From assembly GCF_014861485.1 (NCBI RefSeq), contig NZ_JACZHT010000002.1, positions 186,001 through 250,000 on the forward strand: a stretch of DNA of 64,000 nucleotides, in the 5' to 3' direction. Source of the stretch: Phaeovibrio sulfidiphilus. GTDB taxonomy: Bacteria; Pseudomonadota; Alphaproteobacteria; Rhodospirillales; Rhodospirillaceae. The position numbers and the translations under genes are program-made. The number at the start of each line of letters is the position of its first letter. Positions within the stretch are counted from its first letter, which is position 1. The notes under the pieces are model-generated. The model did no database searches, had not been told where the DNA came from, and was given only the letters and a program-made list of their open reading frames with translations. Of this stretch, positions 16,930 through 56,159 are shown in pieces.

Positions 16930-19900
16930 ATGGTGTCGCGCGTCTGCGCCGTTCTTGGTCCGACCAACACAGGTAAAACCTATCTTGCCATGGAGCGGAT
17001 GCTGGCTCATGCCTCGGGTATGATCGGCTTTCCGCTCCGTTTGCTTGCCCGGGAGAACTATGACCGGGCCGTGCGCCTTGTGGGCGCCGGGGCCGTTGCC
17101 CTGATCACCGGCGAGGAGAAGATCCTCCCCCCCAGAGCCCGCTACTTCGTGTGCACCGTCGAGAGCATGCCCGTGAACCGGAGCGTGGAGTTCCTCGCCA
17201 TCGACGAGATCCAGCTGTGCGGCGATCCCGAGCGGGGCCACATCTTCACCGACCGGCTGCTCAACGCCCGGGGCACCGGGGAAACCATGTTCCTGGGCGC
17301 CGAGAGCATGGCGGGCCTGATCCGCCGCCTGGTTCCGGGCTGCACCTTTGACACCCGGACCCGGTTCTCCCGCCTGTCCTATACCGGGGCCAACCGCGTG
17401 ACACGCCTTCCGCGCCGCTCGGCGGTGGTGGCGTTCTCCGCCGACGAGGTCTATGCGCTTGCCGAGATGTTCCGCCGCCAGAGCGGGGGCGCCGCCGTCG
17501 TCATGGGGGCCCTGTCCCCCCGGACCCGCAACGCCCAGGTGGAGCTCTACCAGTCGGGCCAGGTGGACTACCTGGTGGCCACGGACGCCATCGGCATGGG
17601 CCTGAACATGGACATCGACCATGTGGCCTTCGGGGCCCTGGAAAAATTCGACGGCACCGATGTCCGGTCCCTGACCGCCCAGGAGGTCGCCCAGATCGCC
17701 GGGCGCGCCGGGCGCTACCGCAAGGACGGCACCTTCGGGACCACCGCCGGGGCCCGCCCCATCCCCGAGGATGTGATCGAGCGGGTGGAGAGCCACACCT
17801 TTGCTCCCCAGCAGCGGATTTTCTGGCGGAACAGCGTTCTGGATTTTCGTTCTGTCGAGTCGCTTCTGAAGTCCCTGAACCGGCCCCCGCCCGAGCCCGG
17901 CCTTGTGCGGGCTCCCACCGCCGGGGATCAGGCGGCCCTTGAACTGCTTTCGGGCGATTCGGAGATTGCGGCGCGCGCGTCGTCGCCGTCCTCGGTCGCC
18001 CTTTTGTGGGATGTCTGTCGCATTCCGGACTTCCGGAGACTGCGCAGCCAGTCCCATACCCGCCTGCAGATGCAGGTTTTTACCGGTCTTTCGGCACCCG
18101 GTGGGCGTCTCGACGACGATTTTGTCGCCGGGCGTGTGCGCAGGGTTGACCGAACCGATGGTGACATCCACACTCTCGTAGACCGCATTGCCGCCATTCG
18201 CGTCTGGACGTATATTGCGCACCAGAGTGGATGGCTGAAGGACTCCGCCCACTGGCAGGGACTGACGCGCTCAATCGAAGACCGGCTCTCGGACGCCCTG
18301 CACGAGCGCCTGACCCAGAGGTTTGTGGACCGGTGCATGTCCGTGCTCATGCGCCGCCTGAAGGAATGTACAATGCCTGATGTCGAAATCCTGGCCGCCG
18401 ACGGACGGGTCCTGGTCGAGAAAGACGAGTTCGGTCGACTCGAGGGACTCGCGTTTCGTTCGCCGGCGCCGACCGGTTCTCCGGAAAAAGACCAGATGCT
18501 CCTGACCGCGGCGCGACCTGCGCTGGAGGCCGAGATCCAGCGGCGTCTCGGGCGTCTTCTGGGAGATGACGATGCCGTCTTCTCCCTGGACGCGAACGGC
18601 CGCATTCTCTGGCGCGGTGATGAGGTGGGCCACCTGGGCAAGGGGCCCACGCCTCTGGAGCCGGTTCTCGTCGCCGACGACAACCCGTTCCTGGGCGAGC
18701 CCGGGCAGCAGAAGCTCCTGGAGCATCTCAATGCCTGGTTCGAGCGCCAGTTTGCCTCGCGCCTCGAGCCGCTTGCGGAGATGCGCAAGGCCGACCTCTC
18801 GGGTGTGGCCCGCGGGCTGGTCTACCAGATCCTCGAGAACCTGGGCACCTTGCTGCGGGGCCAGGGCGAGGACCAGGTTGACCAGATGGTCCGTGCGCTG
18901 ACCGAGGAGGACCGCCGGGCCCTGGGGCGCCTTCGCGTCCGGCTTGGCGTCGGCTGCCTGTTTGTGCCGGGGCTTCTGAAGCCTACGGCCCAGTCCCTTC
19001 TGGCGACCCTGTGGCGGATCCACAACGGAAACCCGGGGGGCGCCCTTCCGCCGGACGGGCGCGTGTCCTTCGTCGCCGCCCCGGATGTTCCGGAGAGCTT
19101 TTACCTTGCCATGGGCTACCGGCTCATGGGGACCAAGGCCATTCGCGTTGACATGCTCGAGCGCTTTGCCGCCGACGTGCGCCGCCTGATCCGCGAGACC
19201 AACGAGGCCCGCAAGGCGGACGCCGCCGCGCCGGCCACGGATGGGGTGTCTGCGGACGCAGCCGCCGGGGAGGGGGCTGCGGTCCCGGCCTCCGCTGAGG
19301 CGTCCGAGGCCACCCCGGACTCCGGTGATGGCGCGGGCGCGGTGCCCCAGGAACCCGCCGGCCCGTCCGGGGATGCGGATGCGGTTCCGCTGGCTGCGGA
19401 GGGGCCGGACGGCTCGGCCGACGCCGCCCGTGCCGACGCGCCCGAGGCTGCGGCTCCGACCGCGGAAGGTGCCGAAGGTACCGCTGAGGGTACGGAAGGT
19501 GCCGCTGAGGGTGCGGACGCGCCCGTGCGGACCCCCGCGGTCCCCCGCCCGGGAGAGGTGGTTTTCTCCAAGGATATCCTTCCCCAGCTGGGCATCGATA
19601 TCGAGGACGGCGAGATCGTCCTCCAGCTTCTGGGCTACCGGACGCGGATGGAGGACGGCTCCCTGTTTGTTCGGCCCAAGCGCCGTGGCGTCTCGAAAGA
19701 CCGTCCCGAGCGCGGGAACCGCCGGCGCGGTCCGCAGGCGGACGCCCAGGGCGAGCGCGGTGATGCCCGTCCCCGCAAGGAGGGCGACGCGGGCCGTCCC
19801 CGGCGGGACCGGGACGAGGGCCGCAAAGGTCCGGGCGACGGTCGCAAGCGGGGCAAGCCCGGAGCGCACGACGGTGCCAGGGCCGGGCGCAAGCCGTCCA

Positions 19901-19986
19901 GCTTCTCCAGCGCACCGGCTCCGCGTGAGCGCGAGCCGGATCCGGACAGCCCCTTCGCTGTCCTCGGCGCCCTTCTGAAGCGCTAG
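16930..19986 (+). CDS. Suv3-like ATP-dependent RNA helicase with long disordered C-terminus
   Basis: This 1018-residue protein starts directly with a helicase core like that of the mitochondrial degradosome helicase Suv3/SUPV3L1. Walker A is GPTNTGKT (10-17), the Walker B equivalent is DEIQ (92-95), and motif V/VI is VATDAIGMGLNMDIDHVAFG followed by QIAGRAGR (255-262). Residues about 330-760 are a family-specific helical region. Residues about 770-880 are an Ala/Glu/Asp/Pro-rich linker with imperfect AEGTEG-type repeats. After a short folded block (SKDILPQLGIDIEDGEIVLQ) the last about 100 residues are Arg/Lys/Gly-rich, as in RNA-binding tails. The strong terminator at 20014 closes the unit. 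A role in RNA decay or ribosome quality control is inferred from family and from the HPF neighbour. Confidence 0.92.
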   Translation: MVSRVCAVLGPTNTGKTYLAMERMLAHASGMIGFPLRLLARENYDRAVRLVGAGAVALITGEEKILPPRARYFVCTVESMPVNRSVEFLAIDEIQLCGDPERGHIFTDRLLNARGTGETMFLGAESMAGLIRRLVPGCTFDTRTRFSRLSYTGANRVTRLPRRSAVVAFSADEVYALAEMFRRQSGGAAVVMGALSPRTRNAQVELYQSGQVDYLVATDAIGMGLNMDIDHVAFGALEKFDGTDVRSLTAQEVAQIAGRAGRYRKDGTFGTTAGARPIPEDVIERVESHTFAPQQRIFWRNSVLDFRSVESLLKSLNRPPPEPGLVRAPTAGDQAALELLSGDSEIAARASSPSSVALLWDVCRIPDFRRLRSQSHTRLQMQVFTGLSAPGGRLDDDFVAGRVRRVDRTDGDIHTLVDRIAAIRVWTYIAHQSGWLKDSAHWQGLTRSIEDRLSDALHERLTQRFVDRCMSVLMRRLKECTMPDVEILAADGRVLVEKDEFGRLEGLAFRSPAPTGSPEKDQMLLTAARPALEAEIQRRLGRLLGDDDAVFSLDANGRILWRGDEVGHLGKGPTPLEPVLVADDNPFLGEPGQQKLLEHLNAWFERQFASRLEPLAEMRKADLSGVARGLVYQILENLGTLLRGQGEDQVDQMVRALTEEDRRALGRLRVRLGVGCLFVPGLLKPTAQSLLATLWRIHNGNPGGALPPDGRVSFVAAPDVPESFYLAMGYRLMGTKAIRVDMLERFAADVRRLIRETNEARKADAAAPATDGVSADAAAGEGAAVPASAEASEATPDSGDGAGAVPQEPAGPSGDADAVPLAAEGPDGSADAARADAPEAAAPTAEGAEGTAEGTEGAAEGADAPVRTPAVPRPGEVVFSKDILPQLGIDIEDGEIVLQLLGYRTRMEDGSLFVRPKRRGVSKDRPERGNRRRGPQADAQGERGDARPRKEGDAGRPRRDRDEGRKGPGDGRKRGKPGAHDGARAGRKPSSFSSAPAPREREPDPDSPFAVLGALLKR

Positions 19987-20013
19987 GATCACGCATCAGA
20001 CGTGAGACATCGG

Positions 20014-20047
20014 GTGGCCCTGACAGCTGTGCAGGGCCACTTTTTTT
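20014..20047 (+). terminator. Rho-independent terminator after the helicase gene
   Basis: A perfect 9-base-pair stem (GTGGCCCTG / CAGGGCCAC) with a 9-base loop that is itself partly palindromic (ACAGCTGT) is followed by seven T at 20041-20047. It begins 27 bases after the stop codon. Confidence 0.93.
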
Positions 20048-20688
20048 CGGGCTGTGTGCGGCGGCTGCCCTGTTCCAGGAAGGGGGCGTTGGCCGGGTCC
20101 GGTGCCCGGGCTGTTGCGCGGTTCTCTCTTTTGTGGGGCGTTTCCCGGTGTCCGCGCCATACCGGTGACGCGCGGGGGCGTTCCCGCTGCTCCGTTCCGG
20201 GCCCACCTGCACCTGCACAGGCGGGCTCTGTTGCGTCCCGGGGTAAGGGCGGGTCTCGTTTCGTCCCGGTCTCCCGGCCTCCTGATCCCGCCCGGCTGTG
20301 TGTCCGGACACGCCCCGTCCCCGTGCACCTTCGCCGCGGGAGCGTTCTGCCGCTTTGTGACCCTCCCCGCAGGTCGCCGTCCCCGCAGGTCGCCGTTCCC
20401 GGACGGGGCGGGCGGGAGGGGGGGGGCGGGGTGTGGGCTCGGGGACTGCGGGCGCGGTGGCACCTCCGCCAGCGGCTTCGGTATCAGGGGGGGGCGGACC
20501 GCACGCCCTCGGTCCGGATCGCCGCCGGAGTCGCGGATGGTCCGTCCCGTGACTCCCGCTTTGGGGGAGGGGGCGCGTTTCGTTTGGATGCGGACCGGGC
20601 GCAGCATTGGGCGCGCGGGGCTTTGCCGCCCGACTTCTTTTCAGTGCCCATGACACTTTTTTTATGGCGTTATTGTCATGCCCGAAGC

Positions 20689-20705
20689 ACTCGCTGTAAG
20701 CGAGT
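20689..20705. repeat. Perfect 7-bp inverted repeat
   Basis: ACTCGCT and AGCGAGT are separated by GTA. The dyad is operator-like or a small hairpin. It lies about 340 bases before the mucR start, and the protein that binds it, if any, is unknown. Confidence 0.6.
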
Positions 20706-20972
20706 TACCGCGGGGTGCACAGTCGGACCGATATTCGTTGGTAGGGAGAATCGCGCGGGAACAGGCCTTTGGGTGGCCCCGGTCAAGACAAAGGACGGTA
20801 TTTCGCAGCCCGTGTTTGTGATTTTGAACGGAAAAACGGTTAACGGGAAGCGGTGCACATTGGAAGTAATTTTAATTCCTGTCCATGCCACTCGGATTTG
20901 TGTTCAAGATTTTGTCATCCCGGTTGCTTCGGAATGCTGTCCTCGCGGAGCAAAAAGGGAGTTTTTTTGGTC

Positions 20973-21008
20973 TTTACGGTTTTCAAAAAAGTGAAGTATA
21001 CTTATACT
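20973..21008 (+). promoter_or_regulatory. Overlapping mucR promoters with a 14-base operator-like dyad
   Basis: Two -10 elements TATACT (20997-21002 and 21003-21008) can pair with TTTACG (20973-20978, 18-base spacing) and TTTTCA (20980-20985, 17-base spacing). The two -10 elements also form the inverted repeat AGTATA-CT-TATACT (20995-21008). A repressor bound there would block both promoters; MucR/Ros proteins are known to repress themselves, so autoregulation is a reasonable inference. Confidence 0.55.
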
Positions 21009-21045
21009 CGAAATGCCAGGCTCCTTTTTCAATGAAGGTGAGTTT

Positions 21046-21459
21046 ATGTCCAATCCCATGCCGCAAAAAGATCTGATTCAGTGCACGGCTCAAATTGTCG
21101 CCTCCTATGTCGGCAATAATACGGTGGCTGTATCCGAGCTTCCTGATCTCGTCGTGTCTGTCCACAGGTCTCTGGTGGCGCTGTCCAGTCCGCCCGTTGA
21201 GGTTGAGGAACGTCCCCAGCCGGCCGTTCCCATCCGCAAGTCGGTGACCCCGGACTACATCATCTGTCTTGAGGACGGCAAAAAGCTCAAGATGCTGAAG
21301 CGTCACCTGAAGACGGCCTACAACATGACGCCGGAAGAGTATCGCGAGCGCTGGGGTCTGTCGCCGGATTACCCGATGGTGGCCCCGAACTACGCCGTCC
21401 GACGCTCCGAGCTGGCGAAGAAGATCGGTCTCGGGACTCGCACGACCCGCCAGGGCTAG
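21046..21459 (+). CDS. mucR: Ros/MucR family transcriptional regulator
   Basis: This 137-residue protein is a member of the Ros/MucR family, which controls exopolysaccharide, motility and cell-cycle genes in alphaproteobacteria by binding AT-rich DNA. The hallmark block runs from TPDYIICLEDGKKLKMLKRH (68-87) through AYNMTPEEYRERWGL to PDYPMVAPNYA and LAKKIGLG. In classical Ros the zinc ligands are two Cys and two His; here the visible ligands are Cys74, Asp77 and His87, and the usual second His position is Ala or Tyr. The start at 21046 is chosen over the in-frame ATG 33 bases upstream because GAAGGTGAG lies just before it. The AT-rich upstream region is probably its own target. Confidence 0.95.
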   Translation: MSNPMPQKDLIQCTAQIVASYVGNNTVAVSELPDLVVSVHRSLVALSSPPVEVEERPQPAVPIRKSVTPDYIICLEDGKKLKMLKRHLKTAYNMTPEEYRERWGLSPDYPMVAPNYAVRRSELAKKIGLGTRTTRQG

Positions 21460-21578
21460 ACTCCCGCGGGACCGACGCGTTCCGGGCTGTGATGCGGGGC
21501 CCCCGTGGCCCCGCGGAGCCGTTTCCCGCCCCCGAGTGACGGGCGGAGGCCAGGTGGCCGGGGGGCTGAATGACCTCT

Positions 21579-21608
21579 TTGCCTTTCGGGCCGGAATGCG
21601 GGTATGCT
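21579..21608 (+). promoter_or_regulatory. Candidate promoter of the fur-family gene
   Basis: TTGCCT (21579-21584) and TATGCT (21603-21608) are 18 bases apart, each matching four of six consensus bases, and lie 43 bases before the ATG. Confidence 0.4.
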
Positions 21609-21651
21609 TGCGGCCCGGTGCTGCATCATTTTTTAGGAAGAGATCCCCCGC

Positions 21652-22077
21652 ATGATAACGAACATCGAAAAGCGGTGCCTTGATCAGGGCATCAAGATGA
21701 CTGAACAGCGAAGGGTGATCGCGCGGGTTTTTGCAGAAGCCAAGGATCACCCCGATGTGGAGGAGGTCTACCGTCGCGCCTCGCTCCTTGATGACCGCAT
21801 CTCCATCGCCACCGTGTACCGCACCGTCCGCCTCTTCGAGGAGGCCGGCGTGCTGGAGCGGCATGACTTCCGGGACGGGCGTGCGCGCTACGAGAAAATA
21901 TCCGATGAGGGCCAGCACGATCACCTGATTGACGTGAAAACCGGCAAGATCATCGAGTTCCAGAGTGACGAGATCGATCGTATCCGGAAGGAAATCGCCG
22001 AGAAGATGGGCTTCCGTCTTATTGGGCATACCCTTGCCCTGTATGGCGTTCCGCTCGCGTCGAAAGAGTCGGAGTAA
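21652..22077 (+). CDS. fur: Fur family metalloregulator
   Basis: The 141-residue product has the Fur winged-helix region (about 1-82) with the recognition helix SIATVYRTVRLFEEAGVL and a dimerisation/metal domain starting at GQHDHLIDVKTGKIIEF (88-103). His33, His89 and His91 are candidate metal ligands. There is no heme-regulatory or HHH motif typical of Irr, and no C-terminal CxxC zinc site. Fur or the manganese-sensing Mur form used by many alphaproteobacteria cannot be told apart here. AGGAAGAG precedes the ATG. olsB starts 30 bases after its stop, suggesting a shared transcript. Confidence 0.93.
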   Translation: MITNIEKRCLDQGIKMTEQRRVIARVFAEAKDHPDVEEVYRRASLLDDRISIATVYRTVRLFEEAGVLERHDFRDGRARYEKISDEGQHDHLIDVKTGKIIEFQSDEIDRIRKEIAEKMGFRLIGHTLALYGVPLASKESE

Positions 22078-22107
22078 GTCGGCTCCCTCTCGTTCCGGGA
22101 AGTGATG

Positions 22108-22881
22108 ATGGACAATCTGGGCGTTCTTCCAGCGGGTTCGCTTGGGGTGGGGCTTGCGAATACGGACGCCGAACTGCAGGCGGTCCAGTCCCTGCGCTAT
22201 CAGGTCTTCTACGAGGAGATGGGGGCAACCCCGACCGCGGAGATGGCCCTGCGCGGGCAGGATTTCGATGTTTTCGATCCGGTTGCCGATCATCTCCTTG
22301 TGCTGGACTATGATCTCGATCCACCCCACGGGCGGGTCGTCGGGTGCTACCGCATGCTCCGGCGCGAGCCGATGGAGCGAATCGGCCGCTTCTACAGCGC
22401 GTCCGAGTACGACATCACGCCGGTCCTGGATTTTTCCGGAAATATCATGGAGTTGGGGCGGTCCTGTGTCGCCCCGACCCACCGGAACCGGGCGACCATG
22501 CAGATGCTCTGGCGCGGACTGGCGGCCTATGTGCGCCGCCACGACGTGTCGCTTCTGTTCGGGTGCGCCAGCCTGTACGGCACGGACCCGTCGGTTCTGG
22601 CGCCCCAGCTGTCCTACCTGTACCACCGTCACCTGGCGCCGGGCGCGCTTCGGGTGCGCGCCCTTCCCGAGCTGTACCAGCCCATGGATCTCCTTCCCCC
22701 CGAGGCCATTGACACCCGCGGCGTGGTGGTCTCCCTGCCGCCGCTCATCAAGGGCTACCTGAACGTGGGCGGGTTCTTCGGGGACGGGGCCGTCATCGAC
22801 CGGCAGTTCAACACAACAGATGTCTTCGTTATTGTTGCGCTGGACCGTCTCGAGGAAAAATACCGCAGGCATTTCTTCTGA
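22108..22881 (+). CDS. olsB: Ornithine-acyl-ACP N-acyltransferase (OlsB-like GNAT)
   Basis: OlsB attaches a 3-hydroxyacyl chain to ornithine, the first step of ornithine-lipid synthesis. The acetyltransferase-like core includes LRYQVFYEEMG (about 29-39), MELGRSCVAPTHRNRATMQMLWRGLAAY and FGCASLYGTDP. The family C-terminus LPPLIKGYLNVGGFFGDGAVID with FNTTDVFVIV is clear. The start lies among GTG-ATG-ATG at 22102-22110; GGGAAG (22097-22102) is spaced best from the last ATG (22108). The gene is followed 44 bases later by the partner acyltransferase olsA, and follows a Fur-family gene. This implies synthesis of phosphorus-free membrane lipids at the inner membrane. Confidence 0.9.
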   Translation: MDNLGVLPAGSLGVGLANTDAELQAVQSLRYQVFYEEMGATPTAEMALRGQDFDVFDPVADHLLVLDYDLDPPHGRVVGCYRMLRREPMERIGRFYSASEYDITPVLDFSGNIMELGRSCVAPTHRNRATMQMLWRGLAAYVRRHDVSLLFGCASLYGTDPSVLAPQLSYLYHRHLAPGALRVRALPELYQPMDLLPPEAIDTRGVVVSLPPLIKGYLNVGGFFGDGAVIDRQFNTTDVFVIVALDRLEEKYRRHFF

Positions 22882-22925
22882 TATTGCCCACGTTTGTGTC
22901 CGCACAGCTTCAGGAGAGTGTGCCT

Positions 22926-23756
22926 GTGTCCCATGCCTTCCCCGCCCTTCTTCGCCTTGTCTGCCTTACGGTGTGGAGCCTCCTCATTGTGGGGCCCTAT
23001 GCCCTGTCCCGGACCGTGGGCTGGGGCTACCGCCGCCTGGGGGTGTTCCACTGGTGGGTCTGCTCCCGGATTCTGGGGCTGGACATCCGCAGATACGGAG
23101 CGGTGTCGGCCAACCAGCCCCTTCTGGTGGTGTCCAACCACGTGTCCTATCTGGATATCTTCATTCTCGGGCTGTGCATTCCGGGCGGCGTGTTCGTGGC
23201 CAAGGCGGAGGTCGCCGGGTGGCCGGGGCTCGGGCTGCTCGCGAAGTCGGCCCGGACGATCTTCATCGACCGGCGTCGCTCGGCCACGGGGCAGGCGGCC
23301 CGGGATATCCGCAGGCGCTTTGTCCAGGGGGATCCGCTTGTGCTGTTCCCCGAGGGGACAAGCGATGACGGGAACCGGGTGTATCCCTTTAAGAGTGCCC
23401 TTTTTTCCGTTGCGGACACCCCGGTGGTCCTTCCCGGAAACGACACGGCCTCCGAGCCCTGGGTCCAGCCGGTGACCCTGGCCTACACCCGGGTGGACGG
23501 ACTTCCCATGGGGCGGTGCCTTCGCCCGCTTTTTGCCTGGTACGGGGATATGGACCTGGCGCCCCACGCCTGGACGGTCCTGGGCTTCGGGCGTCTCGGG
23601 GTGGATGTGATCTTTCACCCGCCGGTCCGCCCGGCGGACTTCGCCTCCCGCAAGGCGCTGTCGGGGTACTGTCAGGCGCAGATTTCGGGCGGGCTGTCCC
23701 GGGCCCTGTCCGGGCGGCTGGAGGACGAGGCTCCGGCTGCGGCTTCGGGGCGGTAA
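22926..23756 (+). CDS. olsA: 1-acyl-sn-glycerol-3-phosphate acyltransferase-like (OlsA)
   Basis: This PlsC-type enzyme would add the second acyl chain to lyso-ornithine lipid. The acyltransferase motifs are NHVSYLD (HX4D, catalytic His and Asp), FIDRRR, and LFPEGTSDDG. A hydrophobic segment near the N-terminus (LLRLVCLTVWSLLIVGPYAL) anchors it to the membrane. Candidate starts are TTG 22884, GTG 22920 and GTG 22926. The AGGAGA at 22912-22917 is spaced 8 bases from 22926, which decides that start (276 residues). Its placement after olsB makes OlsA more likely than a general PlsC, but the sequence alone cannot separate them. Confidence 0.88.
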   Translation: MSHAFPALLRLVCLTVWSLLIVGPYALSRTVGWGYRRLGVFHWWVCSRILGLDIRRYGAVSANQPLLVVSNHVSYLDIFILGLCIPGGVFVAKAEVAGWPGLGLLAKSARTIFIDRRRSATGQAARDIRRRFVQGDPLVLFPEGTSDDGNRVYPFKSALFSVADTPVVLPGNDTASEPWVQPVTLAYTRVDGLPMGRCLRPLFAWYGDMDLAPHAWTVLGFGRLGVDVIFHPPVRPADFASRKALSGYCQAQISGGLSRALSGRLEDEAPAAASGR

Positions 23757-55497: not shown

Positions 55498-55763
55498 CAC
55501 CCGTTCCGGCTTCGGGCGGGGGCGCAGGGACCGGGGGCGAGCGCTGGTATCGCCCCGCACATCCGCACACTAACCCCGGGGGGGCGGCGTCGCTATGTCT
55601 CCTTGCGGCAGTTTGATCTCACCCGCACACCAACCCGGGGCGCAGGCCCGTTTCGTTCGGGCGGGCGCGTTCGTGGTCGCTCAGGTCAGGCCGCTGCCTT
55701 CGTGCCGGTGCAGTTATGTCGCTGCGGTCGGGCCGTTACAGCCGGCCGGAAGGGGAAAAGCGC

Positions 55764-56159
55764 GTCAGAGGATCTGTAAGCCGGGTTCTGTCCACACCGC
55801 ACACACCGGGGTGCCTGCAGCGGGGATGGCCATTCATCTGGGACGCCCGTCGCCGGACGCCTCGTGCGATACTACCCGAACGGCGACCCGGAAACTCCGT
55901 CTGTCCCCGCGAGAGGGACTGCCGTTCCTTTTTGATCTTGCTCCCGGCGGGGTTTACCGTGCCGCTCCCGTTGCCGGGCGCGCGGTGCGCTCTTGCCGCA
56001 CCCTTTCACCCTTGCCGGCCGTATAGACCGGCGGTTTGCTTTCTGTGGCACTGTCCCGGGGGTCGCCCCCGCCGGGTGTTACCCGGCGCCGCGTCTCCGT
56101 GGAGCCCGGACTTTCCTCCCCCGGGCGCGAGCCCGGCAGCGGCCATCCGATCCTCTGAC
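55764..56159 (-). ncRNA. rnpB: RNase P RNA (bacterial class A)
   Basis: On the minus strand the universal motif GAGGAAAGTCCGGGCTCCAC is present near the 5' end and the 3' part reads ACAGAACCCGGCTTACAG. The ends pair as GTCAGAGGATC / GATCCTCTGAC (56159-56149 with 55774-55764). Length is about 396 bases. It is the ribozyme that matures tRNA 5' ends. Frames crossing it are spurious. Confidence 0.96.

Follow-up and report, generated by a model that had tools for sequence, protein, structure and literature searches.

The stretch of about 1 kb that separates a helicase gene from mucR in Phaeovibrio sulfidiphilus (20048-21045 of the window, the whole 64-kb stretch of DNA analysed) is probably non-coding DNA at a junction where the chromosome was rearranged or suffered a deletion. 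Its right end would carry a working mucR promoter, TTACGG-17-TATACT with the -10 doubled, lying in a deep AT valley, and MucR most likely binds several AT-rich sites containing T-A steps there and represses its own gene. We infer MucR binding, autorepression, the point at which transcription begins and the origin of the junction. As this locus suggests, an apparent 1-kb control region can be mostly rearrangement scar, with a working part of about 250 bases. The mild surprise lies in the junction and in a promoter, TTGC-N19-TATA, conserved among relatives; otherwise the locus would be a fresh example of known MucR control.

The upstream neighbor is a Suv3-like DEAD/DEXQ-box helicase gene (16930-19986, plus strand; PF22527 at 4.8e-26, PF00271 at 2.1e-9). 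Its intrinsic terminator, on the same strand at 20014-20047, reads GTGGCCCTG-N9-CAGGGCCAC followed by T7, a perfect 9-bp stem with a 9-nt loop, and was missed by our consensus scan because that scan allows loops of 3-8 nt. The original prediction placed about 1 kb of gene-free DNA after a strong terminator, and this was borne out: no coding signal is found in 20048-21045. The long open frames in the gap arise because the DNA is GC-rich. One of 330 aa (20002-20994) has a codon score of -0.165 per codon, where five real neighboring genes reach 0.18 to 0.32 and shuffled sequence gives -0.24 +/- 0.04; nine further frames score from -0.26 to -0.65, and the four frames searched against Pfam gave no match at E<=0.1. 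A hidden gene in the gap was rejected on these codon and Pfam results. Up to 20640 the gap consists of non-coding filler of high GC that is peculiar to this genome among those searched (a DNA search of 61 genomes matched the filler to itself alone) and is presumptively the scar of a rearrangement or deletion. Mobile DNA was rejected as the origin of the gap, with no match in phages, plasmids or the 61 genomes. The filler includes runs of G and, at 20361-20392, a pair of adjoining 16-nt copies, CC(C/G)TCCCCGCAGGTCG; from 20000 to 20500, T greatly exceeds A on the plus strand (AT skew to -0.65).

The arrangement of genes on either side of the gap differs from that in relatives. A helicase upstream of mucR occurs in no other locus of a 110-locus set, whose members carry from 0.04 to 3 kb of upstream DNA, and of 15 relative loci, 13 carry an S4/Hsp15-like gene after the helicase, while the remaining two are contig fragments. 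A TusA-family gene (PF01206 at 2.2e-16 in one example) is divergent from mucR in 71 of the 105 loci, out of 110, with more than 400 nt upstream. In relatives this gene lies on the minus strand, at roughly -350 to -90 of mucR, and carries the motif CPxTFVKTKL. It is missing in 34 of the 105, including this locus and L004 of the nearest genus, and its absence by itself is not rare. The gap is long because both ancestral neighbors are gone, and helicase and mucR appear to have been joined by a rearrangement or deletion. The S4/Hsp15-like gene found no match in this genome, in a search that had no positive control and whose empty answer shows little; a tblastn search with S4 matched only at an unrelated place. 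Profile search of the window revealed no TusA relic (no hit in the region better than E 2.7), and the sole TusA-family gene of this genome is a distant one, encoded elsewhere and 20% identical to the query. Because the genome is a draft of 31 contigs, 97.6% complete, the missing S4 and TusA-like genes could lie in its gaps. The loss of both neighbors, together with the open 330-aa frame, would also fit a gap that is itself a decayed gene (TusA-like, S4 or a foreign pseudogene), but the empty TusA profile search, the unrelated S4 match, the absence of coding bias and the lack of any match among phages, plasmids and 61 genomes make such a relic improbable. We know of no functional link between mucR and the TusA-family gene, and a literature search returned no paper on their neighborhood, which does not prove that none exists. 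Elsewhere in the same genome, a locus beside a CarD-family gene (L195) contains at 760-950 a tandem hexanucleotide-like repeat that reads as (EP)n or (SQ)n depending on frame.

The gene at the right of the gap (21046-21459, plus strand) belongs to the Ros/MucR family, matching PF05443 at 1e-50 with 171 bits against a cut-off of 25.4 over residues 9-130, and is the sole MucR-like gene of the genome at E<=0.001. Downstream, at 21652-23753, lie a Fur-family gene (under every NCBIfam cut-off, with Fur as the best) and then OlsB-like and OlsA-like ornithine-lipid genes, an order common in relatives. The AT-rich end of the gap is probably an ordinary, functional mucR promoter of the sigma-70 type, set in a deep AT valley. 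It reads TTACGG-17-TATACT, with the candidate -35 at 20974-20979 on the plus strand, 17 bp before the first -10 and one base off the TTGC of relatives; the promoter scan favors other -35 hexamers, TTTACG at 20973 (18 bp) and TTTTCA at 20980 (17 bp). The hexamer TATACT occurs twice in tandem on the plus strand (20997-21002 and 21003-21008, or -49 to -38 of mucR), giving two -10 candidates, and a ribosome-binding site, AAGGTGA, was read by eye at 21033-21039. Two overlapping -10 elements forming a 14-base palindrome had been described here; the palindrome (20995-21008) and both -10 elements are present, but the elements are adjacent rather than overlapping, and the palindrome exists because the hexamer is duplicated.

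GC content runs at about 0.7-0.78 up to approximately 20600 and then falls to 0.35 at 20950-21049. The sharp drop claimed for the last 400 bases is confirmed, as the lowest windows of the whole 64 kb, against a mean of 0.678, lie here at every size examined: 0.35 for 100 nt (20950-21049), 0.41 for 200 nt (20815-21014) and 0.43 for 300 nt (20799-21098). T-A steps number 15 in the last 398 nt, compared with a mean of 4.2 and a maximum of 13 in 400-nt tiles of the window. The long AT-rich stretch before mucR, with its many T-A steps, is the feature expected of a Brucella-type MucR-autoregulated promoter, and the valley at 20799-21045, with the lowest GC and the most T-A steps in the window and a position conserved in relatives, is a candidate MucR binding region. 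AT runs with T-A steps occur at -389 and -179 of mucR. The latter, TAATTTTAATT at 20867-20877, is a putative MucR site, 179 bases before the ATG, comparable with Site 1 of Brucella, reported at -174.

Among relatives, the DNA upstream of mucR is not alignable, and a comparison of the gap with 40 of them gave no conserved match beyond one of 20 nt at E 0.0097. What is conserved at mucR is the composition and position of the AT valley. The lowest-GC 100 nt within -1500/+1900 falls at -250 to +50 of mucR in 92 of the 104 loci with enough flank (out of 110), or 25 of 28 whole-genome loci and 67 of 76 genome_contigs loci. The mucR set contains duplicates of one assembly (L009 and L033, for example), so non-redundant counts are given as well: with near-identical upstream regions dropped, the figure is 78 of 89. 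Among control genes, 16 of 27 lexA loci and 16 of 29 HU loci passed the same test (30 loci each, before the flank requirement), and the valley could therefore partly reflect general promoter AT-richness, seen in over half of the lexA and HU loci. The mean GC drop, however, is -0.24 for mucR against -0.18 for lexA and -0.16 for HU (Mann-Whitney p 1.8e-4 and 1.1e-6, whole-genome set). Promoters are AT-rich in general, and that of mucR is more so.

The promoter element also differs between mucR and the controls. TTGC-N19-TATA is found in 58 of 107 mucR upstream regions (of 110 loci; L004-L112), at about -31 to -60, while spacings of 15-18 yield 0 or 1 case each and the counts at spacing 21 would largely be TATATA read two bases on. 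A looser TTGC-N15-21-TATA occurs in 68 of 107 mucR regions and in 0 of 30 for lexA and 0 of 30 for HU; sites of the TTGAC type show the reverse, with 29 of 30 for lexA, 18 of 30 for HU and 10 of 107 for mucR. The exact TTGC-N19-TATA is lacking before the mucR studied here; the TTAC-N19-TATA in its place has one mismatch, and with up to one mismatch allowed nine matches occur in the window where 3.8 are expected. These results offer a simple signature, an AT valley plus TTGC-N19-TATA. They also allow a more tentative proposal, possible but on balance doubtful: that the mucR promoter of the sampled relatives is of its own TTGC-N2-N17-TATA kind, as opposed to TTGAC at lexA and HU, and sits always in the deepest AT valley of its locus; that an H-NS-like silencer and this promoter co-evolved as a self-limiting switch in which composition, not sequence, is conserved; and that in the lineage of P. 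sulfidiphilus the switch was rebuilt, with TTGC changed to TTAC, a doubled -10 and a wider valley, after loss of the divergent TusA-like gene.

Published systems provide the precedent for MucR acting in such a valley. In Brucella, MucR is reported to bind three AT-rich sites with T-A steps at its own gene, at -174, -91 and -31, and to leave unbound an equally AT-rich probe that lacks T-A steps; the reported binding hinges on AT-richness and T-A steps and not on a palindrome (PMC5881533). For Brucella MucR, binding regions of 141-217 nt with 74-83% AT are described (PMC10746212), and in Sinorhizobium fredii recruitment of MucR climbs with AT content (PMC8857273). The mucR promoter of Brucella abortus resembles the one here in being AT-rich, with T-A steps, spread over about 180 bases upstream (PMC5881533, PMC10746212), and in belonging to a paralogous protein family, with autorepression reported in Brucella; however, binding has been demonstrated there, whereas the sites here are predicted, the sequences are not alignable, and the organism is of a different order. 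The S. fredii case, xenogeneic silencing of the H-NS type, is described as genome-wide and directed at foreign genes, in contrast to the single core locus considered here (PMC8857273).

Autorepression through several MucR contacts seems likeliest because of the reported Brucella and Rhizobium precedents together with the AT runs at -389 and -179 and the TATACT pair. In the scheme we propose, a rearrangement or deletion between helicase and mucR would have left the non-coding junction, a sigma-70-type promoter in the AT valley would drive mucR, and MucR, an H-NS-like zinc-finger protein, would bind several of the AT-rich T-A-step sites in the valley and, once bound, repress mucR transcription, keeping its own level down. 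A multi-site autoregulatory region, as originally suggested, therefore appears to be the best reading, judged by base composition, by where the valley lies in relatives and by what has been published on MucR elsewhere. What sustains it is the AT valley with its 15 T-A steps, the placement seen in 92 of 104 loci and the Brucella work (PMC5881533); the inverted repeats and the palindrome do not, the former not being conserved in sequence where searched and the latter being a hexamer duplication. The comparative evidence would extend the picture of MucR self-control drawn from Brucella and Rhizobium to a distant alphaproteobacterial branch.

Inverted repeats had been central to the original prediction, and three dyads do lie in the last 400 bases: CATGACA-N18-TGTCATG at 20649-20680, ACTCGCT-N3-AGCGAGT at 20689-20705 and TTTTTTG-N14-CAAAAAA, built of A-tracts and overlapping the -35 area, at 20963-20990. 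Dyads with arms of at least 7 number three in 20648-21045 against 0.51 expected, a count reached by 1.5% of 200 shuffles, and those with arms of at least 6 number seven against 1.71 expected, which 0.5% of shuffles reach. Among 318 tiles of 400 nt taken from the window, 17 (5.3%) likewise contain three or more dyads with 7-bp arms, and the region was chosen after the fact, so the excess of 7-bp dyads in these 398 bases is modest, and the arms are short. As no dyad excess was found in the first 600 bases of the gap, to call the whole a large inverted-repeat-rich region overstates the case. Within 600 nt upstream of mucR, the first two dyads and the -10 palindrome are each absent from all 109 other loci; conservation of the dyads in relatives, named earlier as a check, therefore failed for the two searched, and conserved dyads before mucR were rejected. 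Some dimeric regulator distinct from MucR might still use the dyads as dedicated operators, and their modest excess could speak for this, but it is unlikely given the absence of the two searched from the other loci, the lack of any sequence in common among the three, and an average of 1.08 dyads with arms of at least 6 in 107 mucR upstream regions against 0.79 in shuffled sequence. The dyads are probably incidental and dispensable for MucR autoregulation. The closest parallel for a repeat-based arrangement is rosR of Rhizobium leguminosarum bv. trifolii, whose 450-bp upstream region is reported to hold six inverted repeats, one of them over a -10, and a Ros/MucR autoregulatory box (PMC3131613). 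That region likewise has several repeats, one of them over a -10, and an autoregulatory site of a Ros/MucR protein, predicted in our case, but it has two mapped promoters, leaders of 240-273 nt and a 22-bp RosR-box (PMC3131613), whereas here there is one promoter zone with a putative leader of about 30 nt, and the two dyads searched and the -10 palindrome gave no sign of conserved repeats of the RosR type.

The original prediction had also raised an unannotated small RNA, or in a related form a structured leader, encoded in the gap. The two stable-looking stems at 20649-20705 and the 1 kb of space without assignment invite such a reading, but it drew no support and seems very unlikely. The Rfam gathering score was not reached, with just one chance match at E 1.7; folding z-scores range from -1.8 to +2.0 against shuffles in 23 windows per strand; in 19000-22500 the only sigma-70-like promoters detected are the pair at mucR, and 20640-21045 holds no terminator-like site; and comparison with 40 relatives gave no conserved DNA besides the single 20-nt match. 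Elsewhere in the window, at 55761-56158 on the minus strand, lies an RNase P RNA of class A (RF00010, 280 bits).
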